The notes under the pieces were generated by a model that was not told the origin of the DNA, searched no databases, and saw nothing but the letters and a program-made list of their open reading frames with translations. Positions 5,079-13,694 of a stretch of DNA of 13,694 nucleotides are shown here, piece by piece; the stretch's first letter is position 1, and the number at the start of each line of letters is the position of its first letter. This DNA is from Acidobacteriaceae bacterium. GTDB taxonomy: Bacteria; Acidobacteriota; Terriglobia; Terriglobales; Acidobacteriaceae. The translations under genes were made by a program, and so were the position numbers. The stretch spans positions 2,787-16,480 of the forward strand of contig PLKU01000083.1 in assembly GCA_003140705.1 (NCBI GenBank), read 5' to 3'.

Positions 5079-5491
5079 CTAGAAGATGAACTTGGCGCTT
5101 ACCTGAAGCTGGCGCGATGAACCGCCATCGCTGACGGCGAAGCGAGTTGCCGAGATCTGGCCGAAGGCAGAGGACTGGACATTGCCCGACGGCTGCCCGA
5201 AGTTGGGGTGGTTGAGAATGTCAAAAGCATCGGCGCGCAATTCGAAGGTGAGGCCCTCGAATAGCTTCGTGTCTTTCTGCCCGGATAGGTCAATATCCGC
5301 GAAGCCCGGACCCGTGCCGGCATTGCGCTGCATCAGGCCTAGGCCGGTGTAGACGGTTGGTGCAGTGCTTGCGGTGGCGCTGGCTTGCGTGCCCACAACC
5401 TCAAAGCTGCAGGAGGAAGTGTAATTCGTGTTGTCACAGACTGTGCCACCGGCGCCAAGGCCGGTGCTTGCCCGCGGACGGCCAACCAGGC
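5079..5491 (-). pseudogene. TonB-dependent receptor (Oar-like), C-terminal remnant
   Basis: Only the last ~135 residues of an outer-membrane TonB-dependent receptor remain, out of roughly 1,000 or more in the Oar-like group. The remaining part is well preserved: a loop with two Cys, then ADIDLSGQKDTKLFEG, then LRADAFDILNHPNFGQPSG, and a final strand ending in aromatic FIF, the usual outer-membrane C-terminus. The frame has no stop within the remnant and keeps its own terminator just downstream. Reading upstream on the minus strand, recognisable sequence (CLVGRPR) ends near 5491, where xylanase homology begins on the other strand. The plug domain, signal peptide and most of the barrel are absent, so it cannot make a functional receptor. 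The first possible start codon in this frame is a GTG at 5396 with no ribosome site. The left boundary (stop TAG at 5079) is firm; the right one is approximate. Confidence 0.75.
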
Positions 5492-5494
5492 AAT

Positions 5495-6109
5495 CTTCGC
5501 AAATCGTTCTGGTTCGAATGCATCGGCCCGGATTACATCGAGACAGCTTTCCGCGCGGCGCGCGAAGCTGACCCGCACGCGCGCCTCACTTATAACGACT
5601 ATGGGGTGGAGTCCGACAATCCGGAACAGGCTACCCGGCGCGCATCGATCCTGGCGCTGCTTCACCGCTTGCAGCAGCACAACGTGCCCATCGATGCGGT
5701 CGGCATTCAGTCGCACATCAAGGCGGGCGCGCAGTCTCCCATGGGTAAAGGCCTGGCTGAGTTCATTGAAAGCGTGCGCCAGATGGGACTAGAGGTTTAC
5801 CTTATCGAGATGGACGTTAACGAAGACGACCTCGCGTTCGATGACGTTCAGCAACGGGACAAGGCGATCGCCGAGACCTACCGCGCGTTTCTCGATGTTG
5901 CGCTTGCAAACTCTGCTGTAAAAGCCATGCTGACCTGGGGCGTGAGCGACCGGCGAACCTGGTTAAATGATGGGCCGACACACCATCGCAAGCAACCGAA
6001 CCGCCCCCAGCGCTCGCTTCCCTTCGGTCGCGACTATCGCCCGAAAGATGCGTTTTTCGCCATTCGCGACAGCTTCGACGCCCTGCATACATCTGCAAGC
6101 ACCCTTTAA
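5495..6109 (+). pseudogene. GH10 endo-1,4-beta-xylanase, 5'-truncated remnant
   Basis: About 204 C-terminal residues of a glycoside hydrolase family 10 domain (normally ~300-350) remain. In order: LRKSFWFECIGPDYIETAF, then the NDY motif (about 5598-5606), QSHI, the segment YLIEMDV whose Glu (codon 5807-5809) fits the catalytic nucleophile, and LTWGVSDRRTWL near the end. What is missing is the N-terminal half of the barrel, including the WDVVNE motif with the acid/base Glu, which should stand only some 20-25 residues upstream of where homology starts. No in-frame start with a ribosome site lies at the junction; the open frame simply runs on through antisense receptor sequence to 5357. It should be inactive. 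The intact enzyme would have cut xylan, with the neighbouring receptor perhaps importing products (inference). Confidence 0.75.
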
Positions 6110-9370: not shown

Positions 9371-10231
9371 CTATTCCAGGAACTCGCGGACGAACTTGTT
9401 GTCGGTGTGAAGCAGATTGTGCAAAGAGCCGTCGAAGATCAAGCGACCATCCTCGAGCATGAGGAACGTGGTGTTCGGGTTGGTCACACCCTGAGGCAAG
9501 GTAACCATGTGTCCCTGATCCTCATCAAATTGATGCGTGCAGAGGGTGAAGGCGTCCTGGAGGCGATGGGTGACCAAAATTGAAGGGGTGTGGTAGACGT
9601 CGCGCTCCTTCATCACCAGCTCAATAATCGTTGTGGAAGTGACGGGGTCAAGACCGCCCGTTGGAGAGTCGTAGAGGATGAGCTCGGGTTGATGGATGAG
9701 AGCGCGCGCAATGGCAACGCGGCGTCGCATGCCGCCAGAAAGACTGCTGGGAAAGAGCGCAAAAGTGTCGTCGAGCTCGACGAACTGCAACGCTTCGTGG
9801 ACGCGGGCATCGATTTCGTCATCACGGACACGTTCTGCAATCAACTGGTAGGCCACATTGTCCCGGACGGAGAGCGAATCGAAGAGCGCGCCCTCTTGGA
9901 AAACCATGCCGGCCCGAGTGCGGAGGGCGAAGAGGGTCTCCTCGCGCATGTCGGCGATTTCCTGGCCGAAGAGCTGGATGCTTCCCTGGTCGGGCCGAAC
10001 CAAACCATTGACCAGCTTGAGCAGGACGCTCTTGCCTACCCCGGCGGGCCCAAGCAAAATGCGCGTCTCACCCGGCGCCAGGGAGAAGCTGATCTCCTGA
10101 AGAACCGGCTTGCCGTCGAAGGCGATAGAGACATTGCTGAAGGCGACGACGGGACCGGCATCCGCGGGCAGAGCAGGGTGTCGCCCCGAGGGAGCCGGAT
10201 TGGGCGAGGCGTTGGAGGAGGTCTCGCTCAT
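9371..10231 (-). CDS. mlaF: MlaF-like ABC transporter ATPase with altered Walker B
   Basis: The ATPase subunit (286 residues) of an MCE/Mla-type phospholipid transporter; it drives lipid movement between inner and outer membrane from the cytoplasmic face. Visible motifs: Walker A GPAGVGKS (61-68), Q-loop VFQEGALFDSLSV (Gln112), signature LSGGMRRRVAIARAL (164-178), Walker B ELILYDSPTGGLDP (183-196), and the switch His in LVTHRLQDAF (His222). The residue after the Walker B Asp188 is Ser189 (codon TCT on the minus strand), where nearly all active ABC ATPases have the catalytic Glu. A low-complexity Ser/Pro/Ala-rich tail of about 28 residues precedes the domain. Its ATG overlaps the stop of the permease gene by four bases (ATGA), so the two are translationally coupled. 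Mla assignment comes from the permease partner. Confidence 0.88.
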   Translation of the reverse strand: MSETSSNASPNPAPSGRHPALPADAGPVVAFSNVSIAFDGKPVLQEISFSLAPGETRILLGPAGVGKSVLLKLVNGLVRPDQGSIQLFGQEIADMREETLFALRTRAGMVFQEGALFDSLSVRDNVAYQLIAERVRDDEIDARVHEALQFVELDDTFALFPSSLSGGMRRRVAIARALIHQPELILYDSPTGGLDPVTSTTIIELVMKERDVYHTPSILVTHRLQDAFTLCTHQFDEDQGHMVTLPQGVTNPNTTFLMLEDGRLIFDGSLHNLLHTDNKFVREFLE

Positions 10232-11010
10232 AGCGGGGGTAAGAGGGTGAGAAGTACTTGAGTAACAAGAAAGTCGACGAAGATGATGAGGACCGAAGAA
10301 GTGACGACCGCCTGAATAGTTGAGCGGCCTACTCCCTCAGTGCCGCCCGAGGTTCTCATGCCATAAAAGCAGCCGATCGAGGCAATGATGAAACCTGAAA
10401 AGAGCGGCTTGACAAGCCCCTGAATAATGTCGGGATAACGGAGGTGCTCCCAGGCCTGGGAAAAATATTGCGTGCCGTCCTGGTGGTTCATGAAGACGCT
10501 GACGGCGGCTCCGCCAAAGATGCCGAAAGCGTCGGCAAGGATGGTGAGAAACAAGAGCATGGTGATGCATGAAAAGAGGCGTGGCGTGACCAGTTTGCGC
10601 ATGGGGTCGACGCCGAGGGCGCGCATAGCGTCAATCTGCTCGGTCACGACCATGGAGCCGAGTTCGCTGGCCATCGAGGATGCGTTGCGGCCTGAGACCA
10701 TGATGCCTGTAAGCACCGGGCCCAACTCCCGAATCATGGTAATGCTGACGAACCGCCCTGTGACGGCGGCGGCACCGAACTGGGCCAACGTGGCGGCAGA
10801 TTGAAGGGCTAAGACGCCTCCGGTAAAGAAACCAGCCATGAGCACGATAGTTGCCGAGCCAAAGCCGATAATGTCGGACTGCACAAGGAATTCCGGCCAG
10901 TAACGGGGCGCGCTAAAAAGATTCATGACGGCGCGATGCGCAAACAGGGAGTATTCCTGAACGGTGAGCACGAGTTGCTTGGCAGTTCTATCGATCGTGA
11001 TGGTCGCCAT
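10228..11010 (-). CDS. mlaE: MlaE/YrbE-type lipid ABC transporter permease
   Basis: A permease of 260 residues, the normal MlaE length, forming the membrane channel of the phospholipid transporter. The family signature is clear: IRELGPVLTGIMVSGRNASS followed by ASELGSMVVTEQIDAMRALGVDPM, with about five hydrophobic segments around and after it. The start was set at ATG 11010 because the protein then begins MATITIDR and has family length. The frame is open for another 117 codons upstream, but those residues are basic and featureless, and no good ribosome site is visible at either start. The gene opens an operon with mlaF and gcdH. No MCE-domain (MlaD-like) gene follows, although it usually stands beside mlaEF, so the substrate-binding part must be elsewhere if the transporter works. 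Confidence 0.9.
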   Translation of the reverse strand: MATITIDRTAKQLVLTVQEYSLFAHRAVMNLFSAPRYWPEFLVQSDIIGFGSATIVLMAGFFTGGVLALQSAATLAQFGAAAVTGRFVSITMIRELGPVLTGIMVSGRNASSMASELGSMVVTEQIDAMRALGVDPMRKLVTPRLFSCITMLLFLTILADAFGIFGGAAVSVFMNHQDGTQYFSQAWEHLRYPDIIQGLVKPLFSGFIIASIGCFYGMRTSGGTEGVGRSTIQAVVTSSVLIIFVDFLVTQVLLTLLPPL

Positions 11011-11311
11011 AAGGTTTGCCGGGCTGCGGGATGTGCCGGGGTGAGTGCTCGGTTGAAACGATCTTGCATGGTCAGAATAGCGCATCGGGGGAGCCGGTCC
11101 ATGTGCGAAGGTTGTTCGACAGTTAAACAGGTCGGGCCTGGTGAACCACCTGGCAAGAATTACTTGGTGGGGTAAAGAAAATTCCCCCTCTTGCCGCCGC
11201 AGGCTCGGTTCGGTCGCTTTCTTTTCACTAACTTGTGGTGTGGCAATCGGAATGCAGTTGATCCGGCGGACGCCGGCGGGTTCCGCGAAAACGGTTAGAG
11301 AGGTGAAGGGG
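11011..11311. other. Divergent intergenic region between mlaE and the trehalose synthase fusion
   Basis: This 301-bp region must carry the promoters of both divergent transcription units. I find no consensus-like -35/-10 pair on either strand. It contains a 17-bp imperfect palindrome CCTGGTGAACCACCTGG (11137-11153) with arms CCxGGTG and CACCxGG, a possible regulator site. An in-frame extension of the synthase gene (from 11141) crosses it but looks non-coding. Confidence 0.45.
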
Positions 11312-13627
11312 ATGCGCTTCTTCGGTGTGCGTTTGATCCTTGCTCTGTTCGTGGGCATCACATTGGTTTCCCTTGGCTCGGCTTATTTTGAGGTGTTGGC
11401 GCATAAGCTCTCGCTTCGGCGCGAGTTGCAGCGCCGGACCATTTGGCTCGCCACGAGTCTGCAACTCGACCTGGAGCCAGGATTGGCGAATGGGCAAATT
11501 GGGAACCTGGCGGACCGGATTGAACGGCTCCGCGCCCGAGATGAGGCGCTGGCCTTGGCCGTCTATGACGTCCATGGAGCAGTTCTTGCCACCGCCGGAC
11601 CGGTTGAGCTTTTCAAGGAACTTCCACAGGCAGTGTTGACCAAGGCCATTCAGAAGGGCGTGAATTCGGGAGCGTTTGGTCACGATTCTAACTATCAGTG
11701 GCTGGAGGAGGCTGTCCCGCTGAATTCCGGCGGGCAGCCGACTGGCGCGCTAGTGGTCTTGGAAGATGCGGGGTACATTCGCGCCGAAGGCACGGCGGCC
11801 TGGCTGCGGAGTTTCTGGCGGATTGTCGCATTCCTGGTGCTGATTGTAGGCGTGACGCTGCTGATGGTTCGCTGGTTCCTGATGGAGCCGATGACCAAGC
11901 TGGTGGAGCGCTTGCGCCGCGTACGAATGGGGCACAACGACCCGGATCCCGAGGAAAACAAAGCAGAGTTGAACCTGTTCCGCCCGTTGGCGCACGAGGT
12001 GGAGACTATGGCACAGAGTCTGGCCAAGGCACGGGCATCCGCGGCTGCCGAGGCTCGAATGCGCGATGAAGGCGAGCACCATTGGACGGCGGAACGGCTG
12101 GCGGTGCATGTGCGCGAACGGCACGGGTCGAGCAAGATTTTCGTGGTATCGAACCGCGAACCATACATGCACGTTCGGCAGGGCCGGCAAACCGTTTGCG
12201 TGGTTCCTCCCAGCGGACTGGTAACGGCCATTGAGCCGGTGCTGCGGGCCTGCGACGGAGTGTGGGTGGCACATGGAAGCGGAGCGAACGACGGTTTGGT
12301 TGTGGATGAGTTCGACCGGCTGCGCGTTCCGCCGGACGATCCACTTTACACACTTCGGCGCGTTTGGCTGTCCAGGGAAGAAGAAGAAGGCTACTATGAC
12401 GGGTTTGCCAACGAGGGGCTGTGGCCTCTTTGCCATATCGCTCATACACGGCCGATTTTTCGCGCTTCAGATTGGGAGCACTACAAGCGGGTCAATGCCA
12501 AGTTCGCAGCGGCCCTGCTGGAGGAGATGGAGGGCAGCGCCGAACCAGTCGTTTTTGTGCAGGATTATCATTTCGCGTTGCTGCCGCGAATCTTAAAGGA
12601 GGCGCGCCCGGATGCGCGCGTGGCCATCTTCTGGCACATTCCCTGGCCCAATCCTGAGGCGTTTGGGATTTGCCCGTGGCAGGCGGAGTTGTTGGATGGC
12701 CTGCTTGGTGCCGATCTCATTGGCTTTCACATTCCCCTGCACTGCAACAATTTTCTGTCGACCGTGGACCGCGTGCTTGAGTCGCGAACCGATCGTGAAC
12801 ACATGACCTGCCGGCGGAATGGACATACAACCACGGTGCGCCCATACGCGGTAAGCGTGGCCTTGGACGGGACCAAGCCCAATCGAGTTGGACGCGAACC
12901 GTCGCGTTCGGAGCTGTTGGCGATGTTTGGCGTGCGCAGCGAATCCCTCCTGCTTGGAGTAGACCGAATGGACTACACCAAGGGAATTGTCGAACGGCTC
13001 ATGGCAATCGAAAGACTGCTCGAAGAGCATCCATGGCAACGGGAACGGATCACCATGGTGCAGATTGCGGCACCGAGCCGGTCGCGCATTCCCAGCTACG
13101 TGGAACTCAGCGAACGGATCAAGTCGACGGTGGAGCGGATCAATCTGCGTTTTCAGACTCCGCATTGGCGGCCCATTGTCCTCATTGAGCGGCAGTGTAG
13201 CCACGCAGAGGTCGACCGTTGGTATCGAGCAGCGGATCTATGCCTCGTGACCTCACTTCACGACGGGATGAACCTTGTGGCGAAAGAATATCTGGCCGCA
13301 CGCGACGACGAAGACGGAGTGCTGGTGTTGAGCAAATTCACAGGCGCGGCAGTGGAGCTGGGCGACGCCCTGTTGGTGAATCCATACGACATTGAAGGCG
13401 TGGCCGAGGCCATCCATCGGGGTCTTGAGATGGACCGGGGGGAACGGCGGATGCGCATGCAAAGGATGCGGCGACAGGTGATGGAGCACAACGTATACCG
13501 GTGGGCGGCAAACATATTGGGCGACCTTTGCGAACTCCGCCTTGATAACACTGAGGATGTGGAGCTCGTACGAGGCAAGTTGTTGTTCGCTTCAGCAGAG
13601 GGTGGGAATCGTCGTAAACTGGCTTAG
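11312..13627 (+). CDS. otsA: Membrane sensor-HAMP-trehalose-6-phosphate synthase fusion (GT20)
   Basis: A 771-residue protein in two parts. Residues 1-240 look like a receptor: TM1 (about 4-24), an extracytoplasmic domain (25-167) with the Cache/PAS-like piece VYDVHGAVLATAGP and a later GQPTGALVVLEDAGY, TM2 (168-190), then a HAMP-like segment (about 193-240) starting EPMTKLVERLRRVRMG. A short Ala/Arg helix links to residues 274-745, a complete GT20 domain. Its residues match OtsA: SNREP, QDYH (Asp418), GVDRMDYTKG (Arg552, Lys557) and SLHDGMNLVAKEYLA (Asp651, Glu659). OtsA joins UDP-glucose and glucose-6-phosphate to trehalose-6-phosphate. The nucleotide loop reads PPSGL rather than GGL, and HIPWPNPEAFGICPW is typical of a distinct subgroup, so another acceptor sugar is possible. 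Free-standing OtsA is about 470 residues and soluble. ATG 11312 was chosen because AGAGAGGTG precedes it and TM1 begins at once; the in-frame start at 11141 adds 57 residues without RBS support. The next gene starts about 14 nt after the stop. Confidence 0.88.
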   Translation: MRFFGVRLILALFVGITLVSLGSAYFEVLAHKLSLRRELQRRTIWLATSLQLDLEPGLANGQIGNLADRIERLRARDEALALAVYDVHGAVLATAGPVELFKELPQAVLTKAIQKGVNSGAFGHDSNYQWLEEAVPLNSGGQPTGALVVLEDAGYIRAEGTAAWLRSFWRIVAFLVLIVGVTLLMVRWFLMEPMTKLVERLRRVRMGHNDPDPEENKAELNLFRPLAHEVETMAQSLAKARASAAAEARMRDEGEHHWTAERLAVHVRERHGSSKIFVVSNREPYMHVRQGRQTVCVVPPSGLVTAIEPVLRACDGVWVAHGSGANDGLVVDEFDRLRVPPDDPLYTLRRVWLSREEEEGYYDGFANEGLWPLCHIAHTRPIFRASDWEHYKRVNAKFAAALLEEMEGSAEPVVFVQDYHFALLPRILKEARPDARVAIFWHIPWPNPEAFGICPWQAELLDGLLGADLIGFHIPLHCNNFLSTVDRVLESRTDREHMTCRRNGHTTTVRPYAVSVALDGTKPNRVGREPSRSELLAMFGVRSESLLLGVDRMDYTKGIVERLMAIERLLEEHPWQRERITMVQIAAPSRSRIPSYVELSERIKSTVERINLRFQTPHWRPIVLIERQCSHAEVDRWYRAADLCLVTSLHDGMNLVAKEYLAARDDEDGVLVLSKFTGAAVELGDALLVNPYDIEGVAEAIHRGLEMDRGERRMRMQRMRRQVMEHNVYRWAANILGDLCELRLDNTEDVELVRGKLLFASAEGGNRRKLA

Positions 13628-13641
13628 AGAGCGGGTACACG

Positions 13642-13694
13642 GTGACTCCAGAGGTGGCGGACAAGCTGGAAGCATTCTTTAGCGGCTTTGCCAA
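13642..13694 (+). CDS. Start of a downstream gene, possibly trehalose-6-phosphate phosphatase (cut by window end)
   Basis: A GTG codon 14 nt after the synthase stop opens a frame to the window edge, reading MTPEVADKLEAFFSGFA. A GAGAGCGGG stretch about 10 nt upstream could serve as the ribosome site. Only 17 residues are visible, without any motif. The identity as otsB-type phosphatase is a guess from its place directly after the synthase; the leader length before a DYDGTL motif would fit. An alternative start is the GTG at 13654. Confidence 0.4.
   Translation, partial: MTPEVADKLEAFFSGFA

Follow-up and report, generated by a model that had tools for sequence, protein, structure and literature searches.

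A trehalose-6-phosphate synthase joined to a histidine-kinase receptor module: a putative transmembrane receptor-enzyme

Introduction

The OtsA-type trehalose-6-phosphate (T6P) synthases of E. coli (1gz5/1uqt) and M. thermoresistibile (5jij/5jio) are soluble enzymes. Transmembrane receptors, for their part, end in kinases, chemoreceptors, GGDEF/EAL/HD domains, serine phosphatases, cyclases, Ser/Thr kinases, transcription factors or ion channels, according to PMC4822843; being limited to proteins with listed signalling outputs, this survey could not have shown GT20, the family of the T6P synthases. Here we describe a GT20 synthase preceded by a kinase-type receptor, encoded in a stretch of 13,694 nucleotides (the window) from an Acidobacteriaceae bacterium (GCA_003140705.1, contig PLKU01000083.1). 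We propose that it is a transmembrane receptor-enzyme: a cue from outside the membrane would gate its synthesis of T6P and, through it, of trehalose. We consider this reading probable.

No description of a receptor-type T6P synthase was found in the literature, in a search limited to open-licence papers. The available part of PMC3164672 holds no mention of HAMP, and PMC12023794 was discarded as a HAMP report, since the word stands there, in the part available, for the author name Hampp. Current databases name these proteins simply trehalose-6-phosphate synthase.

Architecture and reading frame

The gene and the parts of its product are the following (TM, transmembrane helix; AS1 and AS2, HAMP helices):

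11312..13627, + strand: receptor-type trehalose-6-phosphate synthase, 771 aa, one single open frame from ATG to TAG
11318..11374, + strand: TM1, residues ~3-21, from Kyte-Doolittle hydropathy; in the model it extends into a long helix spanning 2-59
11387..11800, + strand: single Cache (extracytoplasmic PAS-like) domain, residues ~26-163
11810..11878, + strand: TM2, residues ~167-189, from hydropathy; one length in 71/71 members (L079 left out)
11879..12025, + strand: divergent HAMP, residues ~190-238, with AS1 (invariant P193), a variable connector and AS2
12026..12082, + strand: signalling-type linker helix, residues 239-257; no other stretch of the N-terminal half is as conserved (mean pairwise identity 0.57)
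12083..12124, + strand: W-helix, residues 258-271, with W258 and L263 invariant; the N-terminal helix of this GT20 subclade
12134..13528, + strand: GT20 trehalose-6-phosphate synthase domain, residues 275-739 (Pfam PF00982, E 5.9e-118)

The ATG at 11312 agrees with the start position in relatives. A scan of genome contigs returned 581 relatives, from which the best 80 were kept, a choice that favours full-length matches. The N-terminal module and GT20 share one frame in 79 of these 80 loci, the remaining one ending at a contig edge. They come from 10 named phyla: Acidobacteriota (46 loci), Elusimicrobiota (11), Nitrospirota (5), Omnitrophota (4), Daviesiibacteriota (3), Methylomirabilota (2), Myxococcota (2), and Bacteroidota, Verrucomicrobiota and Edwardsiibacteriota (1 each), plus 4 loci without a named phylum. 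Most are metagenome bins, so that single cases may be misbinned.

The source genome is a draft of 582 contigs, 73% complete, with an N gap just downstream of the gene, which could suggest that a frameshift or misassembly had brought two genes, a kinase receptor and an otsA, into one. This explanation is refuted: the one-frame architecture of 79/80 loci, including the isolate Edaphobacter aggregans DSM 19364 (L072), excludes a frameshift or an assembly join. The arrangement of TM1, extracytoplasmic domain, TM2 and GT20 in one frame, claimed by a sequence-only reading of this DNA, is thus a property of the family.

A receptor half shared with sensor histidine kinases

The same module, from position 1 to ~262, occurs without GT20 in 13 open reading frames (ORFs) of 484 to 621 aa among the matches listed (E 1.7e-27 to 2.7e-17). 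Ten of the 13 were retrieved (L113-L122, all from Acidobacteriota) and 5 were scanned with Pfam; all 5 are HAMP-HisKA-HATPase_c sensor kinases above the Pfam cut-offs. In a profile-profile comparison the N-terminal modules of synthases and kinases align over 262 columns with an E of 3.2e-32. From these alignments, we regard it as established that residues 1-262 of the synthase and the receptor half of sensor histidine kinases are homologous over their whole length.

HisKA starts at residue 265-266 in the kinases, and the synthase has the W-helix from 258 and GT20 from 275, so that GT20 occupies the position where the kinase core begins. No Pfam match to HisKA or HATPase_c was found in the window protein at E<=1, and no kinase bearing this receptor module was found in the source genome at its 73% completeness. 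The architecture, the ancestry and the catalytic residues (below) are well supported by these and the following comparisons. As a separate observation, the L113-L122 kinases share the whole receptor half of the synthase, and their ligands or regulons might reveal what it senses.

The GT20 domain and its product

The PF00982 score of 395 bits (gathering cut-off 32.5) places the domain in Glyco_transf_20. The closest solved structures are those of M. thermoresistibile OtsA (MtrOtsA), with 5jij matched at E 1.1e-91 and 5jio matched by the model with a TM-score of 0.91 on the target. In MtrOtsA, PMC6879718 gives Arg286, Lys291, Asp385 and Glu393 as donor residues, Arg18, Tyr90, Asp144 and Arg324 as acceptor residues, and Gly39 as absolutely conserved. 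The donor residues correspond here to R552, K557, D651 and E659, the acceptor residues to R282, Y362, D418 and R590, and the glycine to G302, all identical in 72/72 aligned members; the catalytic residues named by the sequence-only reading (D418, R552, K557, D651, E659) are among them. The position of the allosteric Arg384 of MtrOtsA is H650 in 72/72 members, which means that the known effector site of the mycobacterial enzyme is not kept. Gln146 is replaced by H420 in 71/72 members. E. coli OtsA also has histidine at this position. Judged from its sequence, the enzyme looks competent as a T6P synthase.

These proteins form a GT20 subclade separate from OtsA, with the motif SNREPY. The NCBIfam OtsA equivalog model TIGR02400 gives 432.7 bits, under its cut-off of 564.85, and therefore we file the protein as GT20 and not as an OtsA equivalog. 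Near the glycine loop, the subclade departs from OtsA at S301 (52/72 members, with G in 20) and at H321 (52/72), where MtrOtsA has W. Both features would fit an enzyme that uses another acceptor, for example as a glucosylglycerol-phosphate synthase, with the receptor controlling that compound. We consider this quite improbable: the four acceptor contacts of MtrOtsA are all kept, the glucosylglycerol-phosphate synthase model TIGR02398 scores lower still (312.8 bits, cut-off 569), and the next gene downstream encodes a trehalose-phosphatase:

13642..13694, + strand: start of the otsB (trehalose-phosphatase) gene, which runs past the end of the window

In the full locus of the window (L002), otsB lies 71 bp 3' of the synthase, a 2-N assembly gap being the sole interruption. 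Its product matches PF02358 with 46.8 bits (cut-off 27) and TIGR00685 with 71.4 bits (cut-off 68.05). Among the 77 loci whose sequence reaches far enough, scored on six-frame segments, 56 have an otsB start no more than 450 bp downstream, and 59 have otsB at any place in the locus.

Distribution and evolution

The full-length form was found in 30 genomes, including the source genome, in a listing of 297 from the same phylum, in 6/60 genomes of the phylum of L080 (Elusimicrobia) and in 8/61 of that of L063 (Nitrospirota). From 40 genomes of relatives, again counting the source, 35 contain GT20, and 28 of those have the receptor form. In 26 of these 28 there is no second GT20 above the cut-off (the exceptions are G012 and G040), reading the GT20 pieces in each of G015, G021, G025, G030 and G034 as one gene. 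The receptor-type synthase is the only GT20 counted in the source genome, at its 73% completeness, and also in the genomes of L051, L063, L064, L072, L080 and L097. Since most genomes with the receptor form lack a second GT20, this synthase is usually the sole GT20 enzyme rather than an accessory copy kept for regulation. Trehalose may also be made in them by further routes, TreT for example.

In a GT20 tree, the 72 full forms group with L110, L103, L104, L107, L108 and L132 with an SH-aLRT support of 97, and soluble relatives adjoin this group. The tree comes from a quick IQ-TREE search without bootstrap, its root rests on a long branch, L105, L127 and L132 are long branches themselves, and the L131 row was cut somewhat too far upstream. 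This topology is consistent with a single joining event, in which a kinase receptor was fused to a soluble synthase immediately before W258, with change or loss afterwards. The W-helix is also present in the soluble relatives L128, L129 and L130. The statement of the sequence-only reading that OtsA is normally soluble is correct for OtsA in general but does not extend to this GT20 subclade, where membrane-bound forms are frequent.

In the same genus, L103, L104, L107 and L108 represent a second GT20 paralogue bound to the membrane. It carries two TMs and a degenerate HAMP, its sensor is of another type, and its linker is about 10 residues shorter.

Sensor, HAMP and linker

Using a 19-residue window with a mean hydropathy of at least 1.6, TM1 is kept in 72/72 aligned members and TM2 in 71/72, the exception being L079; the Cache domain and both TMs are retained together in 71/72. 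The extracytoplasmic domain, earlier put at about 143 residues, has ~140 and matches, by sequence or by fold, a single Cache between the two TMs. Its length is 131 to 157 residues across 71 members. The N-terminal piece of the window protein has no Pfam match at E<=0.1; at the same threshold, the N-terminal regions of the 71 members match sCache_3_2 in 22 (best 1.3e-8) and SMP_2, also of the Cache clan, in 35 (best 1.4e-6).

The N-terminal profile of the family matches the extracellular domain of WalK (E 8.2e-4) and the LapD-type periplasmic output domain 4u64 (E 0.0024). The latter match would suit an inside-out or feedback receptor like LapD, through which the state of the enzyme, or the level of T6P or glucose 6-phosphate, would be signalled outward to the Cache domain and to a partner beyond the membrane. 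To this we assign very little probability, as the closest homologues are outside-in kinases and no conserved gene for an outside partner was found among the neighbour families.

The HAMP domain requires more care. Pfam detects it in the N-terminal regions of 13/71 relatives at E<=0.1 (best 3.6e-5). The TM2-HAMP profile of the family aligns with solved HAMP domains in the expected register, at weak E values (0.025-0.9) that a few unrelated, non-HAMP helical chains also reach. By homology and position it aligns with the HAMP of kinases that pass the Pfam cut-off, and since the whole module is homologous to those kinases we call it a divergent HAMP. In this sense, the HAMP of the sequence-only reading stands, although the window protein itself gives no Pfam HAMP match.

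The lengths of TM2, AS1, AS2 and the W-helix are each invariant in 71/71 members (L079 left out), and the HAMP connector varies from 11 to 22 residues in the same number of members. The distance from P225 to W258 is 33 residues in 67/72 members, 34 in 4 and 32 in 1. Mean pairwise identity is 0.20 in the connector, 0.44-0.45 in the HAMP helices, 0.57 in the linker and 0.57-0.68 in GT20. AS2 has a significant heptad-like periodicity (p 0.001).

Several results weigh against a working receptor. The Cache domain has a mean pairwise identity of 0.31 and few near-invariant residues (L66, G81 and I156), and consequently no conserved ligand signature that would indicate one signal. PF00672 (HAMP) has no match in the window protein at E<=1. 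AS2 opens there with L222, and the usual residue at this place in HAMP is Glu. Heptad periodicity in linker residues 240-257 is not significant (p 0.13), and for this reason we do not claim a continuous coiled coil through the linker. Two structure models, made as monomers, break the helix between linker and W-helix, at 253-259 in one and 257-259 in the other, and the former has low confidence in the relay region (block means of 54-69 for residues 201-260). L110 has lost the Cache domain while keeping TM, HAMP and linker, and in L079 both TM2 and AS1 are missing; these losses, together with the soluble relatives, indicate that the enzyme itself can do without the receptor module. Finally, otsB was not found in 18/77 loci.

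The main rival draws on part of this evidence. Under plain membrane anchoring, a constitutive synthase (and, through it, OtsB) would be tethered where trehalose protects lipids, with an inherited sensor and HAMP that no longer signal. A HAMP divergent enough to fall below Pfam detection, a weakly conserved Cache, the retention of TM and HAMP without Cache in L110, and the helix break ahead of GT20 are all compatible with it. Fixed spacing is not something that an anchor requires, however, but here the lengths of TM2, AS1, AS2 and W-helix and the distance from HAMP to the enzyme are nearly frozen over 10 named phyla, no N-terminal stretch is better conserved than the linker, and Cache and both TMs persist in nearly all members. 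We thus regard anchoring alone as unlikely, and prefer the receptor-enzyme.

Gene neighbourhood

Upstream of the synthase, the window contains a candidate place for its promoter:

11008..11311: intergenic region between the synthase and a divergent MlaE-like gene

This divergent gene belongs to a pair identified by Pfam, an ABC ATPase and an MlaE-type permease (9371-10231 and 10228-11007 of the window, - strand), and clustering of neighbours found relatives of the two, in the opposite orientation and upstream of the synthase, at 11 and 10 loci, respectively. Two remnants are also found in the window: a C-terminal piece of an outer-membrane beta-barrel (5079-5396, - strand) and, overlapping it, a GH10 xylanase-like frame without its N-terminal third (5357-6109, + strand).

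Beyond the closest relatives of the window, in other phyla, the cluster gains TreT (32/64 loci), DUF5752 (34/68) and an MscS-like channel (11/68). The next most frequent neighbour families occur in 12, 11 and 10 loci, as counted by clustering of the neighbours alone. TreT, DUF5752 and MscS are absent from L002, where otsB is the sole trehalose neighbour. The window's own neighbours give no sign of an osmotic or desiccation cue beyond the link of otsB to trehalose.

The DUF5752 gene sits between otsB and TreT, and is fused to an MscS-type mechanosensitive channel in L054, L063, L064, L066 and L082. We found no mention of DUF5752 in open-licence literature, and it may be a component of trehalose and osmotic control that has escaped study.

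Proposed mechanism

The protein can be read as the receptor half of a kinase (TM1, single Cache, TM2, HAMP and linker helix) with GT20 replacing the kinase core. A cue outside the cytoplasmic membrane would move TM2, and HAMP and the linker helix, acting as a dimer, would pass the movement to the W-helix. The latter leads into the first GT20 strand, beside the acceptor contact R282 and the G302 loop that would close over the substrates. The relayed movement would then set the rate of T6P synthesis, with OtsB downstream converting T6P to trehalose. Dimerisation, the change of activity by a signal, its sign and the cue are what we infer from this architecture; osmotic, desiccation or envelope stress are natural guesses for the cue. 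The sequence-only reading had proposed such a switch through HAMP and is supported in part: its receptor architecture and intact catalytic domain are borne out, and the switch is the reading that we prefer.

More tentatively, the family might represent a widespread class of signal transduction: the receptor half of a two-component kinase would directly gate an enzyme for a compatible solute, and neither phosphotransfer nor a second messenger nor transcription would stand between the cue and the metabolite. In many bacteria of at least 10 phyla this might be the main or only control point of the OtsAB route to trehalose, with a response to drying or osmotic change on a scale of minutes. We hold this broader proposal to be possible, a little short of probable. 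If true, environmental sensing and metabolism would be joined in one protein, in receptors of a HAMP/Cache type known for signalling outputs. HAMP signalling could then be assayed simply, through a small-molecule product, and the regulation of trehalose in Acidobacteriota of soil and in many uncultured lineages would be readily accounted for. The protein would also be a natural template for engineering receptor-controlled enzymes.

Comparison with known systems

With the OtsA-type synthases of E. coli and M. thermoresistibile, the window protein has in common the fold, the donor and acceptor residues and the linkage to otsB. It differs from them by the kinase-type receptor ahead of the enzyme, by belonging to another subclade (SNREPY) and by its score below the OtsA equivalog cut-off. 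In relation to the single Cache-HAMP-HisKA-HATPase_c kinases (WalK/YycG, CitA/DcuS-like and L113-L122), it lacks HisKA and HATPase_c and has a metabolic glycosyltransferase as output. One-component receptors with GGDEF/EAL, adenylate/guanylate cyclase, PP2C/SpoIIE phosphatase or Ser/Thr kinase outputs likewise combine sensing outside with an enzyme inside, but those outputs act on signalling, whereas the output here would be a sugar phosphate en route to a compatible solute. Based on the sequence, we would class the protein as a one-component transmembrane receptor with a metabolic enzyme as its output.
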